Source: Eunapius fragilis (Eukaryota; Porifera; Demospongiae; Spongillida; Spongillidae). From it: a stretch of 64,000 nt of DNA. The stretch covers positions 2,563,653 to 2,627,652 of the forward strand of contig OY811973.1 in the NCBI GenBank assembly GCA_963681505.1. Direction: 5' to 3'. Positions 7,572 through 56,602 of this stretch are shown in pieces (the first letter of the stretch is position 1; every line of letters begins with the position of its first letter). The notes under the pieces were generated by a model. That model saw nothing but the letters and a program-made list of their open reading frames with translations, did not search any database and was not told the DNA's origin. The translations under genes were made by a program, and so were the position numbers.

Positions 7572-8250
7572 GCATTTGTGTAAATTTGGTCAACATATAG
7601 TGGAAAATCAAATCCATGAATACCTAACACTCCTAAATTTCCTAGCCTTGCATTAGTCATGGTGGAACGAAGCCATGAATGTATCAGTCGTAGGCAGGAT
7701 AATGACCTCACAGCTTCTGCACTGCCAATAGGATGTACCACCAAGATACAAAGTGGCTCCCATACATTGGGAATGAAGATTGGATCAGCATCCTGGCAAA
7801 GTAGTTCCGTAATACTTCTTTTTCCAAAAATACCATTACAATGAACTTTCCATCTGGCGAGCTCACTCTATAAGTTGCCTTCTTCAGGTAACAGATGTTT
7901 CCACTTTGAACTCAAAATGTTACATGTTGCTTGCACATCTTGTTCTCTGATAACCTCAGATATGAGTGCACAAAGTTCAAAATGTGCCCTTTTGTCTTCA
8001 GCAAATCTACTTTCCATTTCACTTATAATAGAATCCAAAAAGGGAATAGTGATCGTAACACGCCAATAATCACATGCAGAAGCAACTTCTGGATTTGGTC
8101 TCGTCTGCCGTCCTCTTATTACTCTTATTTCTGTGCTCAAAAGCAGTGCTTTGCCATATATTCTATTGTGCTCAATGTGTACATTTTCTCTGAGTGTTTT
8201 GTAATGCTTACTCCGAATCTCAGTTCCAATTGTTTCCATTCGTATAAATG
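7572..8250 (-). pseudogene. hAT transposase, C-terminal half
   Basis: On the minus strand the segment nearer 8250 reads LLSTEIRVIRGRQTRPNP then DYWRVTITIPFLDSIISEME. This matches the catalytic-core C-terminal part of hAT transposases of the P52rIPK-like group. The frame ends at 7868-7870. In another frame, about 7575-7835 continues with HPIGSAEAVRSLSCLR and SWLRSTMTNARLG, a clear hAT dimerisation domain (SAEAERSFS..R.K..LRSTM). A frameshift therefore separates the two pieces. The N-terminal part of the same element appears to lie at 9250-9955, beyond a Gypsy fragment that interrupts it. Confidence 0.8.
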
Positions 8251-9055
8251 CTTTGCATATAACACTAGCGTTCAGGCCTCTACAGGACATACACCTTTCT
8301 ACCTTATGTTTGGGAGACAAGCCAAATTGCCGGTGGACCTCATATATGGCCTGGAGAATACACCAGAAGTCGAGCTCCCAGAGTACATAGCGAATTTGAA
8401 AAGAACATTTCAAAAGGCATATGAAATTGCTCGGGAGCATATTGGAGAAAAACAACAGTTCCAGAAGGAGCTGTATAACCAGAAAGTCCATGGATTACCA
8501 TTTTGCGTAGGAGACCTTGTCTGGTTAAATGTTCCAGCAGTCACAAAAGGAAGATCAAAGGAATTGCATCTGCCATGGGATGGCCCATATAGGGTCATTA
8601 AGAGGCTTTCAGATGTTAACTATCGCATTCAGGCTACCATGGGTCGTCGGAGACGTCTGGTCGTACACTTCAACCGACTGAAGAAATGTTCATCCGTTGT
8701 GGAGGCACATGACAGTAGAACTGAAAATGAAGATTTATCGACTGATAAGAGACCACAGGAAGCAACTAAATTGCCTGTTCCAGCAGACAGGGGACTTACG
8801 TTTGTGGATGATGATGAAGGGGATGAAATGGTGGCACCTCAAGGGGAGAGACTTCCTGATGCCCAACCCCCCAGACAGGAGGCAGTAGACCTTCCTCAGG
8901 CCGACAACATACGACCTCAAGAAATACAAGAGGAGTTATTACTTCCTGATGCCCAACCCCCCAGACAGGAGGCAGTAGTCCCTCCTCAGGCAGCCTTCAA
9001 CAATACTAAACAACGCTATCCTTCGAGAAATAGACGCCCCCCAGATTATTTCTAA
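8245..9055 (+). pseudogene. Ty3/Gypsy integrase C-terminal part, 5'-truncated
   Basis: The open frame from about 8245 encodes AYNTSVQASTGHTPFYLMFG, LPVDLIYG, GDLVWLN, WDGPYRVIKRLSDVNYRI and VVHFNRLK, the usual end of a Ty3/Gypsy integrase. It is followed by an acidic and proline-rich tail ending in RYPSRNRRPPDYF and a stop. The tail holds two copies of LPDAQPPRQEAV. The coding part is intact to its end, but the core integrase, RNase H, RT and gag parts are missing. The upstream frame up to ~8240 is antisense hAT sequence, so the ATG of the long frame is not a real start. Confidence 0.85.
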
Positions 9056-15670: not shown

Positions 15671-25934
<10,264 letters not shown>

Positions 25935-27946: not shown

Positions 27947-30900
27947 TCACCACTCAATATTCTCAGCAACCAGATTCCCGCAATTCACCTTCACCTCCAT
28001 GTTCCTCTGAACCACTGCATTGAAATAGCCCTTCTTGCCACCCCACCGACCTGCATCCCCAAACTGCATGATTGTATCACATATCAGTGTGTAAGCATCT
28101 TTAAACTCCCCTGTGGTGTTCATTGCAGCCTGAATCCACCCACTCACACTCCGATTCTCGTTATAAAACTGGAGGAAGGTATTTTTCTTGATGAGAGCAT
28201 CCTCACTCCCTTGTATCTTGATGACCATTAGCACTGCATCACTCGACAACTGAAACATTCCTACTGGCCTGACCACCATCCTGCCATCAGGATCCATATA
28301 TGTATTAATGCGCGTGCCTTCCATGGATGTGCACTTGGGATCCTGAGTGGTGGCTTTCACGGTGACAACAGAGGAAGACAGCGATACCACCGCCGTAGTC
28401 TTCTGGCTACATAGTTCCTTGGGTGCACTCTTGCACACAGTTTTGTGGACAGGCCAATGCTCTTTCTGACATTCTTTCGAACAGTAAGCAGCACATCTGC
28501 ATTTGGCACACTTTTTGAAAGGCTCTTTGTTTGCGATGGCGTTGCATTTGGCACACACCATGCCTGCATTCTCTCGCTCTGCTTGCATGCACTGAAGGTG
28601 TTCGGTATCAAAGGTGATCTCCTTTCCATCAAGAGTCTCATAGAACGGCACTGTAACACATGACTCATGATGCCGATTCGCATCTGCTTTGAGGCATTGC
28701 GTGGAGCAGTACACCACTTTGTTGCATTTGACACAGCGCACCATCCTCTTGCGAGGCCCACCTTTAGCACCACACTTGGCACACTTCAGTCGCCCAAACA
28801 GGTGAGGAGCCATCTGTTTGTATGTTATAATATCACATTGCCTCTTACCTGCATGTGTTCTTTGATATTGTTCAGTCGACTTGATGAATTCTTCAGCCTT
28901 TTCAGGTGTCATCCTATTGTTGATTAACTTGTTATCGTCTGCCACTTTTGCCCTGCCCCGCATCACAATGCCAGTTTCTTGCAGGGAGTAATTGCCGTGG
29001 ATTCGGTTTCCTACAATGGTCAACTTCTCCACACCCATGCCCACCATGATGCCACATTGATTGTTCTTCTTTATGTGGCAGCCAGAGATGACACCACACG
29101 TTCCCATGCAAAATTGGACTCCACCCCAGCCGTTCTGAAAGAGTTCGCAGCCTTCTACCTTGACCTTGACATCTTTGAAACCAGGGGCAGGATCAGCCTC
29201 AACAGTGACCCCAAAAAGCTTATTCCCAGTGACCTTGTTATGGTGAAAGAGGATGCCTCGTGCCGACAGCAGGGCTCCTGAACCTTGATTGTCCTGGATG
29301 ATGTTACTTGGTCCAACAACTGTCTCTGCACTTGCATGTTGCCATACAACCACGCCAGAATTCTCGTTGCAAGAAAAGTGTGAGCTTCTCACATGAGCTG
29401 TGGCACCCATTCGCACCTCGAGCCCATTTTTGGAGTGAGTGGCAGTGCACTGTTGCAGCTGCACCTGGGTGCGGGAGCCCATACAAATAATTGCATTTCC
29501 AACACTTGATCTTGCGTTGCACAACAACATTGTGACCTCGATCTCAATAGAGTGTGCACTATTCCCTACACAGATTGCCGCACCTATCGCACTAATAGCA
29601 GTGCAGTTTTCAATCACCACGGCTGTACCTGCTCGTACATAGATGGCGTGACCACACAGTTCTTTTACACCATCGTGACCCTTGGGACTCAAAAGATCCA
29701 CCGTTAAACCTGACAGGGTCACATGATTGGCCTCCACTTGGATCCCAGCATACGACTTGATAACAACCTTCTCTTTACCGCTCTCTGCTCTTATAGTGAG
29801 GTGCTCTTGCTCAATGCAAAGGCCTATCGTCTCCTTGTATGTGCCTCCTTTCATTGCAATCACTGTGCCGGTGGCAATGCAACCACTCCTGAGGGCTTCC
29901 CCCAATGAAAGGAATTCACCAGACCCTTCACAGTCCACCACAATATGCCGCATACCCTTCTGCTTCTGCCCCTGCTCTTCATTCACATCATCCTCCCTGC
30001 CTACACTGTCATCACTGTCTTTACTTTGGGTCAGATTCTTTAGAATGTTAGCAGCAAATTCAGACTTCGATTTGTCACCACTCCAAAACGATGTGACCAT
30101 TCTCTGAGACTCGTAATCCCTCATGGTATGCAGGACTACAGTCGACACATTCTTCAGTTTCGTCGCAACATCAACAGTAATCAGGAGTGGATTTCCACCC
30201 AGTTTTGTTCGCAGAGTGTCAAAAAATAGAATCTCAGGATCATCCTTTTGCATAGCTCCAGTCACTTTCCCTAACTGCTCCATTTGGGTTGCGATCATCA
30301 GCAGACACTGCTTAGCCCCATTGCTGCCGGGTTCGTTGTAGATCTGAGTGCGCACGATATCTGCCTCAATAGCCATCTCCAATCTGTGGTGAGCCTCTTG
30401 AAAATTCAATGAAAGCATAGCCACATTGACCAGCACGTACATTGCATCACAGCGCTTTTTGTCCTCTGGCACCCCTTGCTTGATGTACTGCCACAGGTGC
30501 TTCTCTGCAGCCTTCATGATGAGCAAACTTTGCTCTGAGTTACCTTCAACTGTTGACTTTGAGTGAATCATTGCATACCCAAGTGCATACAGATTTATAC
30601 GGAAGGTGGGGTCTGCTGCAATCCCCCGTTTGTGCCACAACACAGCGGCATCGTAATCACCTGTCCACATCAAGCTACTCCCGATATGATAACAAACATC
30701 AGCTCGATTCCACAAGTCATTTCGTTTCAACAGAGGCTTCAGAGCTTCCCTAGCCTTGTCCCATGCTCTATCCAACACATGCATCTGCACGTGGACAATG
30801 CTGGCTGCCACTTGCAGACTGAGGCCACAGTGAGGTAAGACCTGCATCTCTGAAGAATCTTCTCTCAACACTCGTTTAGCAGCAGCGAGGGCGAGGGCAT

Positions 30901-33900
30901 GTAACTTAGGTTGCAGTAAAATTTCAGCTGTTGCCAGGATGGAAGCTGTCATGCGGTCCAGGCCAATAACATCCTTACCCACAGAAAGCGCATCATATGA
31001 CAACACATACTGCAGACTAGCCCTCGTGTACATATCTCGCTGCTCTTTCGAAGGCATCTTGTCGGTCAGTTGCCTCAACACCAACCATGCAAGGTACTGT
31101 CCATCCTTAAATTCTGATTTCCAGACTACACTGGTGATTTGTGGAGTGTAGAGCTCGTCTTCACTGGGCTCAGGAAACAGTTTCGCCATCCTCGGAATGT
31201 CTTCTTCTTCTGAGGAGTCGCTATCAGCCTCATCACGCGAACGCATGTAAGTCGAGAATGGGATGTCCATCTCCTCGCATGCGTTCATGTCCTTGGAGAC
31301 GAAATCGGGTGCTTTTGCTGGTCGGACAAACGCTCTCTTCCCTTCCTTCCCAAATCTCGACACTCGTTCGGAGTCCACAACAGCATCCTTCAACCTCAAA
31401 AGCAACTCAGCTTCTGTCAATGATGATTGCTTTGCCCCACATTCTTCGGCAAACAGCTGTGTGATGCACTCATGCCACATGCACTGCAGTTTTATGTTCG
31501 AGTTGTCAACCAGTGATGCATCTGACAGGGCACCCAGTGCTTCCTCCAGATTGCCAGCTCTTATTAACTGTTCTGCCCTGAGAACTAAGCACGAAAACCT
31601 ATACTTGGGAGAGATAGCAGACACACTTTGCTCAGCAGTTGGTGTAATATGGATGACTCTCTGCACGAGGTTGTGATCTCTTATGGCAATGAGGGTCTGC
31701 TCAGCCATCTGGCTCAGGGGACGCCAATCCTGGATCTGAAGCAGCCCAGCCAAGTTGTTTGTGGGATCGAAGGGATCCATCACGATCGGCCCATCATGGT
31801 TCTCAAACACGATGCTATATTCAGGGTAGTTTTCAACCCAGTACAGCTTCAGGTTGCCACTGATTACTTGCAGCAGCAACTCAAGTGAAGTGACAAAGGC
31901 ATTGCAGACATTGTCTTCAGTGAACTGTGAGGCATTGACTTTCTGAACTGCTGCTAATGTAACGAGCTCCAGTAAATAGGAACGCGGCCGGCAGTGACGA
32001 GGCCAGTGCTCTGCACTAGCTCTCCACTTCTTCAATAGTCGCACAACAGCACCAAACAGTGCAGGCTGTGTACGGAAGTAGGCACACTCTTTAACAGATA
32101 ATGAGGGCCTACGAAAGAAGCGTGGACGTGGTGTAAGGTAGCACTGCGAAAGGGGCTCAATGTTAGGGCTGGCTAGCACCACATCGATCTCCACATCTTT
32201 GTATTTGAAGGATACAGCCAGTGGCTTGGGCTTTATATCCACCTTGAGGTCTTCGAGTAGTGTGGCTACATGACGTTGAAGGGACAGGTACATATCGCTC
32301 TCAAAGCATTTTGCAGTTATCGCCACCATGTCGAGGTCAGCACAGCCACTTACAGCAGTTCCTTTCCCGTACGAACCACATACTTCCACTGAGGCAATCA
32401 CTCTGCTGCGAGTCAGAACGTCTGTTATTTCCTGCACGATGCCCTGCAGCTGCAGCAGTTCAGCCGATGTTAGGGCCAAGCTCTCTGCTCTCTGAAGAAA
32501 TGAATGATTCTGTGGAGTTGAACTGAAGTCACCCATGCCACTTCCATTGGGCGGTGTCAGATTCATTTCCATCATAAATTTCTCCACTCCCTCAAAAGCG
32601 AACTTCAGTGTGTCAAACGTGTTATCTACTTCAGCACTCACTGCACCCTCACACTTGGTTCCTCCACCACTTGGTTCCATCAACTCCTCCACCACTGTTC
32701 TTAGGGACTTCCACCAGGCTGGAGTTGCGTTTGTCTCAAGTAAGCACCGCAAGGGGTGTGTACAGATATGCAGTGGATGCTTCTCTGATGAGATGGTGGC
32801 CTGCTTGCTCCAATGTGCTTGATTCTCTGGGTTCTTACGGAGTACATTCTCCCAGCCAGAACCATACCACTCACTCAAGGTAGCACATGCAGGGCCATAG
32901 CCTTGATCAGCAGCCTGCTGCAAGTACTTCCTTGCTTCAAGATCGTCTTGTGTGCAGCCATGCCCGTGATGGTAACAGCGATACAGCTCGAATAACGAAG
33001 GCCCATGCTGCCTCGCTTTTTTCCACCACCCGACTGCTTGTTTGTGATCTCCACGATCAGCCAAGACATGTGCGACATTAAACATGCCAAAATGATTTTC
33101 AAGGCTAGCAGACTCATGGTAGCAGGTCCATGCTACCGAGCTAGCATCAGCCGTGTCTCTAAATGCACTATCCATGACCAAACCCCAGAAAAGGAGCCCT
33201 TTGGAATTCTTCATGTCTTTTGCTTGCTGCAGATGTGATAAGGCACTTAGTGCATTCTCAGGTGTAAACCAGCACAGTTGATACCAGCCATAGAGGGCAA
33301 GGCAATCAGGAATCGACTTCTCCACACCTTTCTCCATCCATGTTATATCGCCATGCTGGGCAAGATAGCAGATAGCAAGGATATCGGGAGGATCAAGGCT
33401 TGCTCGAGCCTCTATGAAATTTCTCCGCTTGCTTGCCTCGTTGGGTTGTTGTTGTGTGGGTGGCAATGTGGCATGTGCTGCAGCAGAATACCTACCATCG
33501 GATGGTGCAGCACATCCAAGAATCAAGGCAGCACGAGCCACGAGATCACTCTTCTCCAGGCATCCTTCTGATGATAGGCCTGCACCATGAATGATCTCCT
33601 TCAGAGCACTAACACTTAGAACCAAGAGCTCCGGATCATCTGAATGTGCATACTGCAGCTGCGTAGCGTCCACCCCTGAGATATGGTGCATCGCTATCTT
33701 GGATTGTTGGAGTCTATGCACGAGGGCACTTGGCTCACTGCAGGTGACTACAATATGAAACCTGTGCTTGCCTAGCTTCCTGATGCACTCGGAGAGCTTC
33801 TGACGAACAAGGAAGAACAATGCACCAAAAATGTCATTGCTGGGTACCTGACACTTCTTCCCTGCTGCAATTATCTCATCACTCGGCCAGCACTGTAGTG

Positions 33901-35233
33901 GATCAAGCTGACTTTCTGGCCTCCAGCGATTATCTACATCGAACAGGAATGGGTTCTGCACATTGTGGTGTGCATTGAATGCTCCTAGAGGGAGCAGCAT
34001 GCCCAGCTTCGCAAAGTTGTCCCACGAGACTCTCTGGTGAGGGGACAGTGTGGTGAGCATCTCAACAGCATATCGTTTGCCTTGAGGGCTGAACAAGTGC
34101 ATTTTACGATCTTCCATGCACTTTCCTATGTGTCGTAATGATTGCAGCAATTTATTCTCAAACATTACAAACCAATGGTTCGGCTCTAGGTTGACTGTGA
34201 GCGTGACATGTGGCAGTTTTGGTAAAGGTGCACAGTATGGACCTTTCATTACCTCTCCCTCTGAGTCCTGCACTAGTTTTCCGAGTATTTCAGCTATGCT
34301 TGCCAATTGTTTGTGAGTCATCGCGACTGAATACCACAATTGTATCAGCATGTCGCAACTCAACTCTCCGAGGGTGCCCATGGCTAGCAGTGACAGCAGG
34401 TTGCAGAAAGTTACGTTAGGTGATGCATGGTTTAGATGCAGGGTGATCTCGCCCTCGTATCCATCTGGAACACTCAGGATCGTATGCACAAAGTCACTCA
34501 GGTCCCCACTCTCGGCCAGGCATGCACTACAAGGTGTTCGTAGGCTCGCGGCACTGGTGGGAAACCGGATCGCCTTTGAATGAAATCTTCGATCCACAAT
34601 CTGGGGCTCCACAATGGCATCCTCTGCAGTCGTATCGTACTTACTGCCCCTCAGCCAGTCCATCTCAGCATACCTCGACTTGCAGTCAATCTTATGTGCT
34701 GGCCAATGCTCCTTCTGACATCTCTTGGAGCAATATTTCACCAGGCCACACCCTTCAGAACAGTCCATTGTCCCTCGCTTCTCACACCTAGCGACACCGT
34801 TCCTGGTTAGCGACCCCATCTTTGGAGTGCAATTGGCACACATGATTTCGTCCAGTGGTTGCATCCGGAGCCCTGAGCTTGGCTGCATCTTGTCTAACTG
34901 TGACTGAAAGTGCTCATCCACGATGTGTGTGCATCCATGCTTTTTCGCTAAAATGGATAGTACCACAAAATCCTGGTTACGGGTAGCTTCCCACTTCTCA
35001 TTACACTCTCCTTCAGAACTGAATATGAAATCGCCTATCTTCTCGTTGGAAATGCTGACAAGATACTCGCGAAACACTTTCTCCTTCTCTGTTTGAGAAG
35101 CTGTTGTATTCAGAGCCTTCTTCAGCTGCTTCATTTTCTGCTCCCTGAGGGATAGGTAGCTGGCGACTTTGCTTTCGTAGGTACTTCGTACACAGTCATC
35201 GTCATCTTCGTCGTCGTAAGCACTTGTAGCCAT
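27947..35233 (-). CDS. Giant OAS-like nucleotidyltransferase with MYND, Sel1/TPR and beta-helix domains
   Basis: A single open frame of 2,428 codons. Domains, with approximate residues: MYND zinc finger 132-184 (CANC...YCSKRCQKEHWPAHKIDC); a DUF4470-like region ~225-555, typical of MYND proteins; Sel1-like repeats ~655-795; an OAS-like nucleotidyltransferase ~925-1185; an acidic linker ~1330-1362; TPR-like helices ~1430-1640; right-handed parallel beta-helix (pectin-lyase-like) ~1760-2105; and two MYND fingers, 2151-2192 and 2227-2267. The OAS-like part has CGSYGKGTAVSGCADLDMV with metal-binding D966 and D968, a third aspartate D1017 in VEIDVVLA, and the OAS C-terminal signature MDPFDPTNNLAG. 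All three catalytic aspartates are present, so activity making 2'-5' oligoadenylates or a related nucleotide is plausible. dsRNA dependence cannot be judged. MYND fingers and repeats suggest a scaffolded cytosolic complex. The ATG follows no better upstream start. A 5' UTR intron is possible. Confidence 0.85.
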   Translation of the reverse strand: MATSAYDDEDDDDCVRSTYESKVASYLSLREQKMKQLKKALNTTASQTEKEKVFREYLVSISNEKIGDFIFSSEGECNEKWEATRNQDFVVLSILAKKHGCTHIVDEHFQSQLDKMQPSSGLRMQPLDEIMCANCTPKMGSLTRNGVARCEKRGTMDCSEGCGLVKYCSKRCQKEHWPAHKIDCKSRYAEMDWLRGSKYDTTAEDAIVEPQIVDRRFHSKAIRFPTSAASLRTPCSACLAESGDLSDFVHTILSVPDGYEGEITLHLNHASPNVTFCNLLSLLAMGTLGELSCDMLIQLWYSVAMTHKQLASIAEILGKLVQDSEGEVMKGPYCAPLPKLPHVTLTVNLEPNHWFVMFENKLLQSLRHIGKCMEDRKMHLFSPQGKRYAVEMLTTLSPHQRVSWDNFAKLGMLLPLGAFNAHHNVQNPFLFDVDNRWRPESQLDPLQCWPSDEIIAAGKKCQVPSNDIFGALFFLVRQKLSECIRKLGKHRFHIVVTCSEPSALVHRLQQSKIAMHHISGVDATQLQYAHSDDPELLVLSVSALKEIIHGAGLSSEGCLEKSDLVARAALILGCAAPSDGRYSAAAHATLPPTQQQPNEASKRRNFIEARASLDPPDILAICYLAQHGDITWMEKGVEKSIPDCLALYGWYQLCWFTPENALSALSHLQQAKDMKNSKGLLFWGLVMDSAFRDTADASSVAWTCYHESASLENHFGMFNVAHVLADRGDHKQAVGWWKKARQHGPSLFELYRCYHHGHGCTQDDLEARKYLQQAADQGYGPACATLSEWYGSGWENVLRKNPENQAHWSKQATISSEKHPLHICTHPLRCLLETNATPAWWKSLRTVVEELMEPSGGGTKCEGAVSAEVDNTFDTLKFAFEGVEKFMMEMNLTPPNGSGMGDFSSTPQNHSFLQRAESLALTSAELLQLQGIVQEITDVLTRSRVIASVEVCGSYGKGTAVSGCADLDMVAITAKCFESDMYLSLQRHVATLLEDLKVDIKPKPLAVSFKYKDVEIDVVLASPNIEPLSQCYLTPRPRFFRRPSLSVKECAYFRTQPALFGAVVRLLKKWRASAEHWPRHCRPRSYLLELVTLAAVQKVNASQFTEDNVCNAFVTSLELLLQVISGNLKLYWVENYPEYSIVFENHDGPIVMDPFDPTNNLAGLLQIQDWRPLSQMAEQTLIAIRDHNLVQRVIHITPTAEQSVSAISPKYRFSCLVLRAEQLIRAGNLEEALGALSDASLVDNSNIKLQCMWHECITQLFAEECGAKQSSLTEAELLLRLKDAVVDSERVSRFGKEGKRAFVRPAKAPDFVSKDMNACEEMDIPFSTYMRSRDEADSDSSEEEDIPRMAKLFPEPSEDELYTPQITSVVWKSEFKDGQYLAWLVLRQLTDKMPSKEQRDMYTRASLQYVLSYDALSVGKDVIGLDRMTASILATAEILLQPKLHALALAAAKRVLREDSSEMQVLPHCGLSLQVAASIVHVQMHVLDRAWDKAREALKPLLKRNDLWNRADVCYHIGSSLMWTGDYDAAVLWHKRGIAADPTFRINLYALGYAMIHSKSTVEGNSEQSLLIMKAAEKHLWQYIKQGVPEDKKRCDAMYVLVNVAMLSLNFQEAHHRLEMAIEADIVRTQIYNEPGSNGAKQCLLMIATQMEQLGKVTGAMQKDDPEILFFDTLRTKLGGNPLLITVDVATKLKNVSTVVLHTMRDYESQRMVTSFWSGDKSKSEFAANILKNLTQSKDSDDSVGREDDVNEEQGQKQKGMRHIVVDCEGSGEFLSLGEALRSGCIATGTVIAMKGGTYKETIGLCIEQEHLTIRAESGKEKVVIKSYAGIQVEANHVTLSGLTVDLLSPKGHDGVKELCGHAIYVRAGTAVVIENCTAISAIGAAICVGNSAHSIEIEVTMLLCNARSSVGNAIICMGSRTQVQLQQCTATHSKNGLEVRMGATAHVRSSHFSCNENSGVVVWQHASAETVVGPSNIIQDNQGSGALLSARGILFHHNKVTGNKLFGVTVEADPAPGFKDVKVKVEGCELFQNGWGGVQFCMGTCGVISGCHIKKNNQCGIMVGMGVEKLTIVGNRIHGNYSLQETGIVMRGRAKVADDNKLINNRMTPEKAEEFIKSTEQYQRTHAGKRQCDIITYKQMAPHLFGRLKCAKCGAKGGPRKRMVRCVKCNKVVYCSTQCLKADANRHHESCVTVPFYETLDGKEITFDTEHLQCMQAERENAGMVCAKCNAIANKEPFKKCAKCRCAAYCSKECQKEHWPVHKTVCKSAPKELCSQKTTAVVSLSSSVVTVKATTQDPKCTSMEGTRINTYMDPDGRMVVRPVGMFQLSSDAVLMVIKIQGSEDALIKKNTFLQFYNENRSVSGWIQAAMNTTGEFKDAYTLICDTIMQFGDAGRWGGKKGYFNAVVQRNMEVKVNCGNLVAENIEW

Positions 35234-43327: not shown

Positions 43328-46300
43328 AATAGCTCCCCACTTGTACCCTGCTCCATAGGGTACCCCTAACACACTACTCCCCACTTATACCCTGCTCCAT
43401 AGGGTACCCCTAACACACCACTCCCCACATGTACCCTGCTCCATAGGGTACCCCTAACACACTACTCCCCACATGTACCCTGCTCAATAGGGTACCCCTA
43501 ACACACCACTCCCCACATGTACCCTGCTCCATAGGGTACCCCTAACACACTACTCCCTACATGTACCCTGCTCCATAGGGGACCCCTAACACACTACTCC
43601 CCACATGTACCCTGCTCCATAGGGTACCCCTAACACATTACTCCCCACATGTACCCTGCTCCATAGGGTACCCCTAACACACTTCTTGGGACCCACATGT
43701 ACCCTGCTCCATAGGGTACCCCTAACACACTACTCCCCACATGTACCCTGCTCCATAGGGTACCCCTAACACACTACTCCCCACATGTACCCTGCTCCAT
43801 AGGGTACCCCTAACACACTACTTGGGACCCACATGTACCCTGCTCCATAGGGTACCCCTAACACACTACTCCCCACATGTACCCTGCTCCATAGGTCCCC
43901 CCTAACACACTACTCCCCACGTGTAACCTGCTCCATAGGGTACCCCTAACACACTACTCCCCACTTGTACCCTGCTCCATAGGGTACCCCTAACACACTA
44001 CTCCCCACTTGTACCCTGCTCCATAGGGTACCCCTAACACACCACTCCCCACATGTACCCTGCTCCATAGGGTACCCCTAACACACTACTCCCCACATGT
44101 ACCCTGCTCAATAGGGTACCCCTAACACACCACTCCCCACATGTACCCTGCTCCATAGGGTACCCCTAACACACTACTCCCTACATGTGCCCTGCTCCAT
44201 AGGGGACCCATAACACACTACTCCCCACATGTACCCTGCTCCATAGGGTACCCCTAACACATTACTCCCCACATGTACCCTGCTCCATAGGGTACCCCTA
44301 ACACACTTCTTGGGACCCACATGTACCCTGCTCCATAGGGTACCCCTAACACACTACTCCCCACATGTACCCTGCTCCATAGGGTACCCCTAACACACTA
44401 CTCCCCACATGTACCCTGCTCCATAGGGTACCCCTAACACACTACTCCCCACTTGTACCCTGCTCCATAGGGTACCCCTAACACACTACTTGGGACCCAC
44501 ATGTACCCTGCTCCATAGGGTACCCCTAACACACTACTCCCCACATGTACCCTGCTCCATAGGGTACCCCTAACACACTACTTGGGACCCACATGTACCC
44601 TGCTCCATAGGGTACCCCTAACACACTACTCCCCACATGTACCCTGCTCCATAGGTCCCCCTAACACACTACTCCCCACGTGTAACCTGCTCCATAGGGT
44701 ACCCCTAACACACTACTTGGGACCCACATGTACCCTGCTCCATAGGGTACCCCTAACACACTACTCCCCACTTGTACCCTGCTCCATAGGGTACCCCTAA
44801 CACACTACTCCCCACTTGTACCCTGCTCCATAGGGTACCCCTAACACACCACTCCCCACATGTACCCTGCTCCATAGGGTACCCCTAACACACTACTCCC
44901 CACATGTACCCTGCTCAATAGGGTACCCCTAACACACCACTCCCCACATGTACCCTGCTCCATAGGGTACCCCTAACACACTACTCCCTACATGTACCCT
45001 GCTCCATAGGGGACCCCTAACACACGACTCCCCACATGTACCCTGCTCCATAGGGTACCCCTAACACATTACTCCCCACATGTACCCTGCTCCATAGGGT
45101 ACCCCTAACACACTTCTTGGGACCCACATGTACCCTGCTCCATAGGGTACCCCTAACACACTACTCCCCACATGTACCCTGCTCCATAGGGTACCCCTAA
45201 CACACTACTCCCCACATGTACCCTGCTCCATAGGGTACCCCTAACACACTACTTGGGACCCACATGTACCCTGCTCCATAGGGTACCCCTAACACACTAC
45301 TCCCCACATGTACCCTGCTCCATAGGTCCCCCCTAACACACTACTCCCCACGTGTAACCTGCTCCATAGGGTACCCCTAACACACTACTCCCCACTTGTA
45401 CCCTGCTCCATAGGGTACCCCTAACACACTACTCCCCACTTGTACCCTGCTCCATAGGGTACCCCTAACACACCACTCCCCACATGTACCCTGCTCCATA
45501 GGGTACCCCTAACACACTACTCCCCACATGTACCCTGCTCAATAGGGTACCCCTAACACACCACTCCCCACATGTACCCTGCTCCATAGGGTACCCCTAA
45601 CACACTACTCCCTACATGTACCCTGCTCCATAGGGGACCCCTAACACACTACTCCCCACATGTACCCTGCTCCATAGGGTACCCCTAACACATTACTCCC
45701 CACATGTACCCTGCTCCATAGGGTACCCCTAACACACTTCTTGGGACCCACATGTACCCTGCTCCATAGGGTACCCCTAACACACTACTCCCCACATGTA
45801 CCCTGCTCCATAGGGTACCCCTAACACACTACTCCCCACTTGTACCCTGCTCCATAGGGTACCCCTAACACACTACTTGGGACCCACATGTACCCTGCTC
45901 CATAGGGTACCCCTAACACACTACTCCCCACATGTACCCTGCTCCATAGGTCCCCCCTAACACACTACTCCCCACGTGTAACCTGCTCCATAGGGTACCC
46001 CTAACACACTACTTGGGACCCACATGTACCCTGCTCCATAGGGCACCCCTAACACACTACTCCCCACATGTACCCTGCTCCATAGGGTACCCCTAACACA
46101 CTACTCGGGACCCACTTGTACCCTGCTCCATAGGGTACCCCTAACACACCACTCCCCACATGTACCCTGCTCCATAGGGTACCCCTAACACACTACTCCC
46201 CACATGTACCCTGCTCCATAGGGTACCCCTAACACACTACTCCCCACATGTACCCTGCTCCATAGGTCCCCCTAAGACACTACTCCCCACATGTACCCTG

Positions 46301-49300
46301 CTCCATAGGTCCCCCTAAGACACTACTCCCCACATGTACCCTGCTCCATAGGGTACCCATAACACACTACTCCCCACATGTACCCTGCTCCATAGGGTAC
46401 CCCTAACACACTACTCCCCACATGTACCCTGCTCCATAGGGTACCCCTAACACACTACTCCCCACATGTACCCTGCTCCATAGGGTACCCCTAACACACT
46501 ACTCCCCACATGTACCCTGCTCCATAGGGTACCCCTAACACACCACTCCCCACATGTACCCTGCTCCATAGGGTACCCCTAACAGAATACTCCCCACATG
46601 TACCCTGCTCCATAGGGTACCCCTAACACACCACTCCCCACATATACCCTGCTCCATAGGGTACCCCTAACACACTACTCCCCACATGTACCCTGCTCCA
46701 TAGGGTACCCCTAACACACTACTCCCCACATGTACCCTGCTCCATAGGTCCCCCCTAACACACTACTCCCCACGTGTAACCTGCTCCATAGGGTACCCCT
46801 AACACACTACTTGGGACCCACATGTACCCTGCTCCATAGGGTACCCCTAACACACTACTCCCCACTTGTACCCTGCTCCATAGGGTACCCCTAACACACC
46901 ACTCCCCACATGTACCCTGCTCCATAGGGTACCCCTAACACACTACTCCCCACATGTACCCTGCTCCATAGGGTACCCCTAACACACTACTCCCCACATG
47001 TACCCTGCTCAATAGGTCCCCCTAACACACTACTCCCCACATGTAACCTGCTCCATAGGGTACCCCTAACACACTACTTCGGACCCACATGTACCCTGTC
47101 CATAGGGTACCCCTAACACACTACTCCCCACATGTACCTTGCTCCATAGGTCCCCCTAAGACACTACGCCCCACATGTGCCCTGCTCCATAGGTCCCCCT
47201 AAGACACTACTCCCCACATGTACCCTGCTCCATAGGGTACCCATAACACACTACTCCCCACATGCACACTGCTCCATAGGGTACCCCTAACACACCACTC
47301 CCCACATGTACCCTGCTCCATAGGGTACCCCTAACACACTACTCCCCACATGAACCCTGCTCCATAGGGTACCCCTAACACACTACTCCCCACATGTACC
47401 CTGCTCCATAGGGTACCCCTAACACACTACTTGGGACCCACATGTACCCTGCTCCATAGGGTACCCCTAACACACTACTCCCCACTTGTACCCTGCTCCA
47501 TAGGGTACCCCTAACACACCACTCCCCACATGTACCCTGCTCCATAGGGTACCCCTAACACACTACTCCCCACATGTACCCTGCTCCATAGGGTACCCCT
47601 AACACACTACTCCCCACATGTACCCTGCTCCATAGGGTACCCCTAACACACTACTTGGGACCCACATGTACCCTGCTCCATAGGGTACCCCTAACACACT
47701 ACTCCCCACATGTACCCTGCTCCATAGGTCCCCCTAAGACACTACTCCCCACATGTACCCTGCTCCATAGGTCCCCCTAAGACACTACTCCCCACATGTA
47801 CCCTGCTCCATAGGGTACCCATAACACACTACTCCCCACATGTACCCTGCTCCATAGGGTACCCCTAACACACTACTCCCCACATGTACCCTGCTCCATA
47901 GGGTACCCCTAACACACTACTCCCCACATGTACCCTGCTCCATAGGGTACCCCTAACACACTACTCCCCACATGTACCCTGCTCCATAGGGTACCCCTAA
48001 CACACCACTCCCCACATGTACCCTGCTCCATAGGGTACCCCTAACAGAATACTCCCCACATGTACCCTGCTCCATAGGGTACCCCTAACACACCACTCCC
48101 CACATATACCCTGCTCCATAGGGTACCCCTAAAACACTACTCCCCACATGTACCCTGCTCCATAGGGTACCCCTAACACACTACTCCCCACATGTACCCT
48201 GCTCCATAGGGTACCCCTAACACACTACTCCCCACATGTACCCTGCTCCATAGGGTACCCCTAACACACTACTCCCCACATGTACCCTGCTCCATAGGGT
48301 ACCCCTAACACACTACTCCCCACATGTACCCTGCTCCATAAGTCCCCCTAACACACTACTCCCCGCATGTAACCTGCTCCATAGGGTACCCCTAACACAC
48401 TACTTGGGACCCACATGTACCCTGCTCCATAGGGTACCCCTAACACACTACTCCCCACATGTACCCTGCTCCATAGGGTACCCCTAACACACTACTCCCC
48501 ACATGTACCCTGCTCCATAGGGTACCCCTAACACACTACTCCCCACATGTACCCTGCTCCATAGGGTGCCCCTAACACACTACTTGGGACCCACATGTAC
48601 CCTGCTCCATAGGGTACCCCTAACACACTACTCCCCACATGTACCCTGCTCCATAGGTCCCCCCTAACACACTACTCCCCACGTGTAACCTGCTCCATAG
48701 GGTACCCCTAACACACTACTCCCCACTTGTACCCTGCTCCATAGGGTACCCCTAACACACTACTCCCCACTTGTACCCTGCTCCATAGGGTACCCCTAAC
48801 ACACCACTCCCCACATGTACCCTGCTCCATAGGGTACCCCTAACACACTACTCCCCACATGTACCCTGCTCAATAGGGTACCCCTAACACACCACTCCCC
48901 ACATGTACCCTGCTCCATAGGGTACCCCTAACACACTACTCCCTACATGTACCCTGCTCCAAAGGGGACCCCTAACACACTACTCCCCACATGTACCCTG
49001 CTCCATAGGGTACCCCTAACACATTACTCCCCACATGTACCCTGCTCCATAGGGTACCCCTAACACACTTCTTGGGACCCAAATGTACCCTGCTCCATAG
49101 GGTACCCCTAACACACTACTCCCCACATGTACCCTGCTCCATAGGGTACCCCTAACACACTACTCCCCACATGTACCCTGCTCCATAGGGTACCCCTAAC
49201 ACACTACTCCCCACTTGTACCCTGCTCCATAGGGTACCCCTAACACACTACTTGGGACCCACATGTACCCTGCTCCATAGGGTACCCCTAACACACTACT

Positions 49301-50305
49301 CCCCACATGTACCCTGCTCCATAGGGTACCCCTAACACACTACTTGGGACCCACATGTACCCTGCTCCATAGGGTACCCCTAACACACTACTCCCCACAT
49401 GTACCCTGCTCCATAGGTCCCCCTAACACACTACTCCCCACGTGTAACCTGCTCCATAGGGTACCCCTAACACACTACTTGGGACCCACATGTACCCTGC
49501 TCCATAGGGTACCCCTAACACACTACTCCCCACTTGTACCCTGCTCCATAGGGTACCCCTAACACACTACTCCCCACTTGTACCCTGCTCCATAGGGTAC
49601 CCCTAACACACCACTCCCCACATGTACCCTGCTCCATAGGGTACCCCTAACACACTACTCCCCACATGTACCCTGCTCAATAGGGTACCCCTAACACACC
49701 ACTCCCCACATGTACCCTGCTCCATAGGGTACCCCTAACACACTACTCCCTACATGTACCCTGCTCCATAGGGGACCCCTAACACACTACTCCCCACATG
49801 TACCCTGCTCCATAGGGTACCCCTAACACATTACTCCCCACATGTACCCTGCTCCATAGGGTACCCCTAACACACTTCTTGGGACCCACATGTACCCTGC
49901 TCCATAGGGTACCCCTAACACACTACTCCCCACATGTACCCTGCTCCATAGGGTACCCCTAACACACTACTCCCCACATGTACCCTGCTCCATAGGGTAC
50001 CCCTAACACACTACTTGGGACCCACATGTACCCTGCTCCATAGGGTACCCCTAACACACTACTCCCCACATGTACCCTGCTCCATAGGTCCCCCCTAACA
50101 CACTACTCCCCACGTGTAACCTGCTCCATAGGGTACCCCTAACACACTACTCCCCACTTGTACCCTGCTCCATAGGGTACCCCTAACACACTACTCCCCA
50201 CTTGTACCCTGCTCCATAGGGTACCCCTAACACACCACTCCCCACATGTACCCTGCTCCATAGGGTACCCCTAACACACTACTCCCCACATGTACCCTGC
50301 TCAAT
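43328..50305 (+). repeat. 44-bp satellite array, ~155 monomers, with higher-order structure
   Basis: The monomer runs ctccccacatgtaccctgct followed by ccatagggtacccctaacacacta. A 47-bp variant has cttgggaccc in place of ctcccc. Variants (cttgtaccc, ctcaatagg, ccctacatg, cacattactcc, cttcttggga) recur in the same order at spacings of about 625 and 805 bp. A block of at least 1.6 kb near the start is repeated near the end at an offset of 4,762 bp. The open frames inside are repeat artefacts. Confidence 0.97.
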
Positions 50306-54982: not shown

Positions 54983-55700
54983 TATGTGTGTGTGTGGTTG
55001 TACATGTGTGAATGAATGGAAGTGGCTGTCATAGGTGTGTGTACAGTCTACCCTCGATAGTGTCCGCTTCGATACAGTCCATCCGCGATAATGTCCGCTA
55101 TTTTTCTCTTGCTAACCAACCCTTCGTAAGCTAAGCTTCGCAGCGCTACTATCCGTTTGTCCTACAGTCTGCTATTTTGGGGGTTCCCAAGGGTGAATTG
55201 GAATTAACTATATGGCTTACAATTGTGGGTACGTGCATATCTGTGTACACATAATCACATCACACCACACAGCTTTCACTTCCATACATGGTGTATATTC
55301 ATGTCATGCAATACTGTACCGTGTGAGGGGGGGGGGGGGGGGGGGGGGGGGGGGCTTTGACATCTTTAAGCCTGCTACAAGTATTAGTTTGGCAATAATC
55401 AATCCTTCCCATCCAGCTGCCTTTCACGAAGTAGTATGTCACACATGATGTTTGGGAGGTGGCCAGTCAAATTAGGCAGTGCTATGTAAATTTGTTGTAC
55501 CCATGGACTGGAATGCCCTTCCTCTCTCTGCCCTGCCCTCCCCTCTCTGCCTACCCCTCTCTGCCCTCCCCTCTCTGCCTTCCCCTCTCTGCCCTCCCCT
55601 CTCTGCCCTCCCCTCTCTGCCCTCCCCTCTCAGCCTCCCCTCTCTGCCTTCCCCTCTCTGCCTCCCCTCTCTGCCTTCCCCTCTCTGCCTTCCCCTCTCT
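53955..55700 (+). repeat. Segmental duplication, unit B
   Basis: Second copy of 51560-53915 without the Harbinger-like insertion. It continues into a much longer cccctctctgcc array. Confidence 0.95.
54910..54995 (+). repeat. (GT)n/(ATGT)n microsatellite
   Basis: Alternating tgtgtg and tatg units. A shorter version is in unit A at about 52470-52515. Confidence 0.9.
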
Positions 55701-56602
55701 GCCTTCCCCTCTCTGCCCTCCCCTCTCTGCCTTCCCATCTCTGCCCTCCCCCTCTCTGCCCTCCCCTCTCTGCCTCCCCCTCTCTGCCCTCCCCTCTCTG
55801 CCTCCCCCTCTCTGCCCTCCCCTCTGTGCCTTCCCCTCTCTGCCTTCCCCTCTCTGCCTTCCCCTCTCTGCCCTCCCCTCTCTGCCTCCCCCTCTCTGCC
55901 CTCCCCTCTCTGCCCTCCCCTCTCTGCCCTCCCCTCTCTGCCTTCCCCTCTCTGCCCTCCCCTCTCTGCCCTCCCCTCTCTGCCCTCCCCTCTCTGCCTC
56001 CCCTCTCTGCCTTCCCCTCTCTGCCTCCCCTCTCTGCCCTCCCCTCTCTGCCTTCCCCTCTCTGCCCTACCCTCTCTGCCTTCCCATCTCTGCCCTCCCC
56101 CTCTCTGCCTCTCCCTCTCTGCCTCCCCCTCTCTGCCCTCCCCTCTCTGCCTTCCCCTCTCTGCCCTCCCCTCTCTGCCCTCCCCTCTCTGCCTCCCCTC
56201 TCTGCCTTCCCATCTCTGCCCTCCCCCTCTCTGCCTTCCCCTCTCTGCCTCCCCCTCTCTGCCCTCCCCTCTCTGCCTCCCCCTCTGTGCCTTCCCCTCT
56301 CTGCCCTCCCCTCTCTGCCTTCCCCTCTCTGCCCTCCCCTCTCTGCCCTCCCCTCTCTGCCTACCCCTCTCTGCCCTCCCCTGTCTGCCTTCCCCTCTCT
56401 GCCCTCCCCCTCTCTGCCCTCCCCTCTCTGCCCTCCCCTCTCTGCCCTTCCCCTCTCTGCCCTCCCCTCTCTGCCTCCCCTCTCTGCCCTCCCCTCTCTG
56501 CCTTCCCCTCTCTGCCTTCCCCTCTCTGCCCTCCCCCTCTCTGCCCTCCCCCTCTCTGCCCTCCCCTCTCTGCCCTCCCCTCTCTGCCTTCCCCTCTGTG
56601 TT
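55518..56602 (+). repeat. Pyrimidine minisatellite, 13-14-bp unit, ~80 copies
   Basis: Units ctctgcccctcc/ctctgccttccc in irregular order. The same unit occurs in ~12 copies at 53775-53915. Several frames on both strands are open for over 300 codons only because the unit lacks stop codons. The plus strand is almost purely C/T. Confidence 0.97.

Follow-up and report, generated by a model that had tools for sequence, protein, structure and literature searches.

A multi-copy family of giant OAS-type proteins, candidate intracellular sensors, in the freshwater sponge Eunapius fragilis

OAS enzymes, which serve an antiviral alarm in animals, are commonly portrayed as small enzymes that turned into sensors of double-stranded RNA (dsRNA) in vertebrates; to our knowledge, known OAS proteins contain between one and three OAS units, either alone or joined to ubiquitin-like domains. 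The minus strand of a 64,000-nucleotide stretch of the Eunapius fragilis genome (GCA_963681505.1, contig OY811973.1, positions 2,563,653 to 2,627,652; hereafter the window) carries at positions 27947-35233 a single ATG-to-stop frame of 2428 codons, in which an OAS-type nucleotidyltransferase is embedded among MYND fingers, helical repeats and a beta-helix. We propose, with even credence, that this giant protein belongs to an expanded family of OAS-type intracellular sensors in which the repeats would switch on the polymerase and a 2'-5'-linked oligonucleotide would be made; such a family would likely be related to immunity or symbiosis. An earlier sequence-only reading of the window held that no OAS in such a scaffold had been described, which has to be withdrawn: according to the excerpts of PMC7882143, Hall et al. 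(2021) describe in one sentence an expressed Oas1-like gene of E. muelleri with a nucleotidyltransferase, TPR, three MYND, a probable pectinesterase and two beta-helix regions, the same domain set by the wording of the description. That report, the only one with this architecture in the literature searched, means that the architecture is not new and provides evidence of transcription for a counterpart; what is new here are the arrays, the selection map, DUF4470 and the phylogenetic placement.

The giant frame and its enzyme

The features of the frame, in window coordinates, are as follows.

27947..35233, minus strand: giant-protein open frame, 2428 codons, stop included; E. muelleri proteins are similar in length
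34682..34840, minus strand: MYND finger 1, residues 132-184 (Pfam zf-MYND)
34322..34537, minus strand: DUF4470, residues 233-304 (Pfam E=5e-7), among the most constrained stretches
33533..33619, minus strand: ARMET_C/SAP-like motif, residues 539-567 (20.3 bits, under the curated cut-off of 23.5)
32789..33313, minus strand: Sel1/TPR helical repeats, residues 641-815
31634..32533, minus strand: OAS-superfamily nucleotidyltransferase, residues 901-1200
32357..32377, minus strand: GSYGKGT loop, residues 953-959
32330..32338, minus strand: predicted catalytic D966 and D968, aligned to human OAS1 D75 and D77
32183..32185, minus strand: predicted catalytic D1017, aligned to human OAS1 D148
31691..32083, minus strand: OAS1_C match, residues 1051-1181; R1065 and K1068 aligned to OAS1 R210 and K213
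31754..31777, minus strand: DPFDPTNN motif, residues 1153-1160
30014..30913, minus strand: TPR superhelix, residues ~1441-1740 (AlphaFold model)
28949..29983, minus strand: right-handed beta-helix, residues 1751-2095 (Pfam Beta_helix E=1.2e-17, two stretches)
28658..28735, minus strand: MYND finger 2, residues 2167-2192, gapped in 7 of 43 aligned rows
28433..28555, minus strand: MYND finger 3, residues 2227-2267, the best zf-MYND stretch
27950..28231, minus strand: C-terminal constrained region lacking a Pfam assignment, residues 2335-2428

The assignment of the nucleotidyltransferase to OAS, already made in the sequence-only reading, is borne out by profile comparisons and by the tree described below, where the sponge proteins fall with mammalian OAS. 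HMMER matched OAS1_C (PF10421) at E=1.3e-11, with 44.8 bits for the whole protein (cut-off 19.9) and 48.9 bits for the domain alone, and the same family was present in all 18 copies scanned out of the 24 found in the genome. A profile of 18 mammalian OAS1 sequences scored 51-60 bits on those 18 copies and at most 3.4 bits on shuffled controls (180 made, 90 listed), and profile-profile comparison with OAS gave a probability of 98.75% (E=1.4e-16, columns 65-297). Mab-21 (PF03281), the cGLR mark, was not among the seven Pfam families listed at E<=5 for the domain alone, a search in which HMMER filters may drop weak matches.

The catalytic motifs reported earlier are present and conserved. Conservation was evaluated in 43 aligned rows, made up of the 17 intact genome copies and 26 database proteins longer than 2100 amino acids besides the window's own; ten of these 26 twin the genome copies, which leaves 33 distinct proteins. 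D966, D968 and D1017 are invariant throughout, and so are the six positions tested of the GSYGKGT loop (all except the variable third), while the DPxDPTNN signature takes the form DPFDPTNN. Among the 34 long database proteins of the family, the loop-plus-aspartate motif is found in 33 (P0034 lacks it) and DPxDP likewise in 33 (P0031 lacks it). The residues aligned to R1065 and K1068 presumably have a role in ATP binding in OAS1. As for RNA, we take K42, K60, R195, K199 and K204 to be the dsRNA contacts of human OAS1; the window copy has T, V, C, R and L at these positions, and at that of K199 four of six aligned copies have R and two have L or H. Since four of the five positions are not basic, dsRNA sensing of the vertebrate type appears disfavoured, and the predicted enzyme is of the OAS type but not of the dsRNA-activated type of vertebrates.

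The remainder of the protein forms the scaffold. Ahead of MYND finger 1 there is a helical stretch, and the C/H ligands of this finger are mostly invariant in the 43 rows, with C135 replaced by S in six. The three MYND fingers previously noted were recovered as three stretches over the curated cut-off (zf-MYND, E=3e-22). DUF4470 had gone unmentioned and is over its curated cut-off (30.2 bits in the whole protein and 34.3 bits as a piece alone, against 25); the ARMET_C/SAP-like motif was listed in four of eight other family proteins scanned (P0033, P0031, P0003 and P0017), the last four of the eight having been scanned at a stricter E. The Sel1/TPR label holds in part: Sel1 is under its cut-off of 30.7 bits in the whole protein (25.1) and over it as a piece alone (36.7), and the AlphaFold model predicts a TPR superhelix at about residues 1440-1740, preceded by a less conserved linker that follows the nucleotidyltransferase, but the Pfam TPR families stay under their cut-offs both in the whole protein and in pieces. 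Similarly, the beta-helix stands on its Pfam match, while its description as pectin-lyase-like goes too far, given that the fold is a generic right-handed one and the Pectinesterase match is below cut-off (16 of 27 bits); NosD, a relative of the beta-helix, is barely over (24.3 versus 23.6 bits). No Pfam family at E<=5 was matched by residues 2275-2428.

Two scaffold modules have matches elsewhere in the genome. DUF4470 has 33 matches, family copies included. The two proteins read outside the family, L032 and L033 (~1,000 amino acids), show DUF4470 alone at E<=0.1 and an LGCGD motif, which is ESGD in the giant protein; LGCGD presumably corresponds to motif I of methyltransferases, and DUF4470 in the giant protein may be a dead methyltransferase-like fold. 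Beta-helix matches number at least 137, many of them in the giant family. Of two such places examined outside it, one, L037, encodes a beta-helix protein with a likely signal peptide at its start and a likely membrane segment at its end, a plan unrelated to that of the giant protein; the other, L038, seems to be of this kind too. On contigs C5 (~10.7-11.4 Mb), C1 (0.03-0.27 Mb) and C6 (7.0 Mb) there are clusters of large beta-helix frames, for the most part uninterrupted and often 1,000-1,900 amino acids long; these clusters, of which one member (L037) was read, are a separate expanded family.

A gene family under uneven constraint

The whole genome (219 Mb, 24 contigs) was searched with OAS1_C at E<=0.001, and 24 places were found: 17 on contig C12, five on C3 (including the window copy), and one each on C11 and C5. 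Sixteen of the C12 copies are co-oriented, between 7.026 and 7.471 Mb (445 kb). Seventeen of the 24 are uninterrupted over about 2190-2455 codons and seven are interrupted; 13 of the intact copies share the last residue and stop codon, and the other four end elsewhere. Two further copies are broken, one on C3 near 2.69 Mb, with 99.5% identity to the window copy over 4.8 kb, and a 26th (L039, C22:1879600-1889000) disrupted after about residue 700 by an insert of ~5 kb. This insert carries a 1498-amino-acid frame on the opposite strand and is probably a retroelement. The 24 copies, their arrays and the seven interruptions are what a family that both expands and decays would show. A loose exon-wise search for conventional OAS returned 28 rows, namely the 24 copies, one more that is broken (the 25th; 23 bits, over cut-off) and three rows below cut-off, of which the one that was read, on C13, has stops. 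This is not proof that the genome lacks a conventional OAS gene.

That the giant frame is one gene, as first proposed, is supported by its being open in those 17 copies and by two database proteins of similar length, P0003 (labelled E. muelleri, 2434 amino acids) and P0005 (labelled as an Em gene, 2409 amino acids). The frame is ~6 times the length of the next-longest listed for the window (407 amino acids). Similarity among the 17 intact copies falls off at ~75 nt upstream of the ATG and at 175-250 nt downstream of the stop, and a signal of the ATTAAA/AATAAA type lies 226 nt past the stop in the window copy and within 800 nt of it in 12 of the 17. These borders and the signal are compatible with one coding exon, and a gene with a single coding exon fits the sequence. 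A mobile-element reading of the frame was also considered and rejected, as the Pfam scan gave no transposon domain in it.

Beyond the genome, P0003 and P0005 are 88-89% identical to the window copy over residues 900-1200. Identity over the OAS part was 78-100% for the 34 long database proteins, 14 of which are same-genome copies at >=99.9%, and 78-98% for eight short ones. The best 120 of the 1181 proteins matched were family members and mammalian-type OAS, the latter 21-31% identical over part of the domain, and the other 1061 may include invertebrate OAS; this search requires shared five-letter words and may miss split genes as whole proteins, which limits its reach into marine sponges. No relative was found in the viral and prokaryote collections or in phages, nor in plasmids at 1e-5. 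In the protein tree the four intact C3 copies cluster together, and copy L025 has as its neighbours a cluster of six proteins, none more than 88% identical to a genome copy fetched; this resembles gene birth and death across species.

Constraint was then compared along the frame as the ratio of nonsynonymous to synonymous change (dN/dS). In the 17 intact copies it was 0.43 for the whole frame, with dN exceeding dS in none of 136 pairs. The nucleotidyltransferase had the lowest value of all modules, narrowly under DUF4470 and Sel1, both in pairwise comparison (0.26, versus 0.27 for DUF4470 at residues 186-305, 0.27 for Sel1 and 0.33-0.60 for the others) and when changes were counted on the tree (0.28, versus 0.30 and 0.30). 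The second half of the TPR region (1601-1740) was among the loosest parts, with a tree value of 0.66; the tree-based p-values, 8.6e-14 for the nucleotidyltransferase against the rest and 3e-5 for this TPR half, assume independent changes. The C-terminal region 2335-2428 showed 0.22-0.33 in a sliding window and 0.32 on the tree. Synonymous change itself varied along the frame (dS 0.11-0.45), which suggests gene conversion among copies.

A candidate sensor family and its alternatives

The combination of a conserved enzyme, flanking repeats that in part change faster, and many copies arising and breaking would fit a receptor set with a shared catalytic output. In its favour stand also the grouping with mammalian OAS, the expression of the E. 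muelleri counterpart and its change after algal infection (PMC7882143, excerpts), and the making of 2-5A and 3-5A without dsRNA reported for sponge OAS (PMC6307210, excerpts). In the mechanism that we propose, the TPR/beta-helix side would read some ligand or partner, though not plain dsRNA; this cue on the repeat modules would switch on the OAS domain, and the domain would make a 2'-5'-linked oligonucleotide signal, presumably of the oligoadenylate type; the MYND fingers could dock partner proteins, and the nucleotide output may serve defence or symbiont control. More tentatively, and we hold this wider version to be rather doubtful, freshwater sponges might have evolved a large set of diversifying intracellular receptors that each join a ligand-reading TPR/beta-helix and an OAS polymerase in one chain and make their own messenger, distinguishing algal symbiont from pathogen independently of dsRNA, interferon and RNase L and acting through another effector.

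Several observations weigh against the sensor proposal. According to the excerpts of PMC7882143, when sponges had been infected with green algae for 24 h, expression of the E. muelleri Oas1-like gene had dropped and not risen. DUF4470 and Sel1 are almost as constrained as the enzyme, while residues 1-130 (0.63), 816-900 (0.63) and the linker 2096-2160 (0.82) are as loose as the TPR half, whose looser constraint can be plain relaxation. Of the 683 codons tested for positive selection, 13 reached p<0.1, below the chance expectation, and none remained after correction. The AlphaFold models are poor (mean pLDDT 38 and 47), and domain contacts are not readable in them. A search of the genome with a KEN-nuclease profile found one locus, in three pieces on C7, and no dedicated 2-5A effector; this sole locus is likely, and most simply, IRE1, so that RNase L is an unlikely effector. 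Nothing matching STING, SAVED or Mab-21 turned up in the genome, which carries little weight, as these searches came up empty in the control genomes too. Finally, tandem duplication is widespread in E. muelleri and common among freshwater sponges (Kenny et al., 2020; excerpts of PMC7385117), so an array alone is no proof of an immune role.

Another possibility, less probable than the sensor proposal although not negligible, is that the enzyme is constitutively active, as is reported of OAS from marine sponges, with the scaffold merely positioning it and the nucleotide having a housekeeping or regulatory role and raising no alarm. In the excerpts of PMC6307210, Hu et al. (2018) found OAS in four sponges and did not find interferon, its receptor, STAT1/2 or RNase L, and sponge OAS is cited there as making 2-5A and 3-5A without dsRNA; both facts fit constitutive activity, as do the mostly non-basic dsRNA-contact positions of the window copy. 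The 16 co-oriented copies, the broken members and the fast TPR half would be unusual for a housekeeping enzyme, an objection softened, as far as the array goes, by the many gene types duplicated in sponges (PMC7385117, excerpts).

Vertebrate OASL provides a precedent for an OAS fold with lost catalysis, and two of three aligned OASL rows (P0059 and P0123) lack the acidic DxD motif. By analogy, the OAS part could be dead or purely structural and the sponge proteins MYND/TPR/beta-helix scaffolds. We consider this improbable, since the invariance of the three aspartates and of the tested loop positions in 33 distinct proteins, together with the lowest dN/dS of all modules, is not predicted by a purely structural role.

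A separate acquisition of the nucleotidyltransferase from bacterial CBASS clade C, and not from animal OAS, seems more improbable still. Bacterial oligonucleotide-cyclase profiles of CBASS match nearly as well as OAS1_C (E=5.9e-10 for the full-length protein; all 18 copies scanned are matched), and in a tblastn search of plasmids with copy L010 the matches (E weak, 0.06-0.6) fall in all 12 records on a gene for a CBASS cyclase or nucleotidyltransferase. A tree was examined in which 26 rows were included: six of the 24 sponge copies, nine mammalian OAS/OASL picked among 112 proteins (P0043-P0154, where P0052 is a family fragment) and 11 bacterial enzymes (four of the 12 plasmid records and seven of the 40 listed among 96 matched). 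The sponge proteins and OAS, the latter all mammalian, lay on one side of a branch with support 100/98, or 100/99 when four long or outlying rows were removed (22 rows). With 26 rows, grouping of the sponge proteins with clade C and of OAS with clade C were both rejected (p-AU 0.0067 and 0.0075, respectively), as was grouping with either clade-C subgroup with 22 rows (p-AU 0.0004 and 0.0007). DPxDPT is present in the 15 sponge and OAS rows and in none of the 11 bacterial ones. The sponge stem is very long (2.23 changes per column), with a warning of long branches meeting in both tree runs, and the sponge unit is 25-28% identical to two mammalian OAS1 rows. The case for grouping the sponge family with animal OAS over clade C is hence good but not final. 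It agrees with the published placement of the OAS superfamily inside bacterial clade C as a whole (PMC10732462, excerpts).

That the frame is an artefact, whether a chimaera that joins adjacent genes or a pseudogene in decay, is scarcely credible in spite of the interrupted and broken copies, considering the 17 open frames, the absence of pairs with dN above dS, a dN/dS of 0.33 between the window copy and its nearest intact sister, and the transcribed E. muelleri counterpart (PMC7882143, excerpts).

If a product and an effector were found, the proposed sensors would give a non-bilaterian animal a system of nucleotide second messengers distinct from 2-5A/RNase L and cGAS/STING, and the giant family offers a route to the question of the role of OAS in early animals. 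RNA interference by dsRNA has reportedly been achieved in E. muelleri. This sponge can be cultured and its infection by algae can be timed (PMC7882143, excerpts).

Neighbouring sequences and known systems

Other parts of the window contain repeats and a fragment of a mobile element. On the plus strand, the frame at 7931-9055 has an integrase p58 C-terminal domain and a Tf2-1-like SH3 match below cut-off, and is probably a fragment of a long terminal repeat retroelement. At 16960-17560 there are three tandem 202-bp units with 95% identity; one reading frame of the unit encodes an EGF-like module (CQCQNGGTCNGSVCVCPPGYTGTLCET, translation judged by eye), so that this repeat probably represents a duplicated EGF exon. 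Positions 43333-50302 are occupied by a 7-kb satellite with a 44-bp unit in ~156 copies and a GC skew of about -0.55, a very strong strand asymmetry. Five long frames that overlap on the two strands at 55533-56597 are likely due to a CT-rich 14-bp tandem repeat there (76 copies).

Among known systems, the closest counterpart is the E. muelleri gene, which figures in the excerpts of PMC7882143 as one down-regulated gene; copy number, arrays, DUF4470, catalytic conservation and phylogeny are added here. The animal OAS proteins (OAS1/2/3, OASL and marine sponge OAS) have OAS1_C, GSxGKGT, the three aspartates and DPxDPT in common with the giant protein. They differ in that here one divergent unit stands inside a 2428-amino-acid scaffold and has non-basic residues at four of the five presumed dsRNA contacts. 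The clade-C CD-NTases of bacterial CBASS (CdnC type) share the nucleotidyltransferase fold and motifs, with long domain matches, but fall outside the sponge and OAS group and, unlike the giant protein, are arranged in four records as a gene followed by a small open reading frame and an ATPase gene. As a working analogy only, NLR and other multi-copy intracellular receptors also combine a constrained output with more variable repeats, and tandem arrays with broken copies. No NACHT or NB-ARC is among the 18 Pfam families matched by the giant protein at E<=1 and, in contrast to NLR, its output would be a nucleotide.

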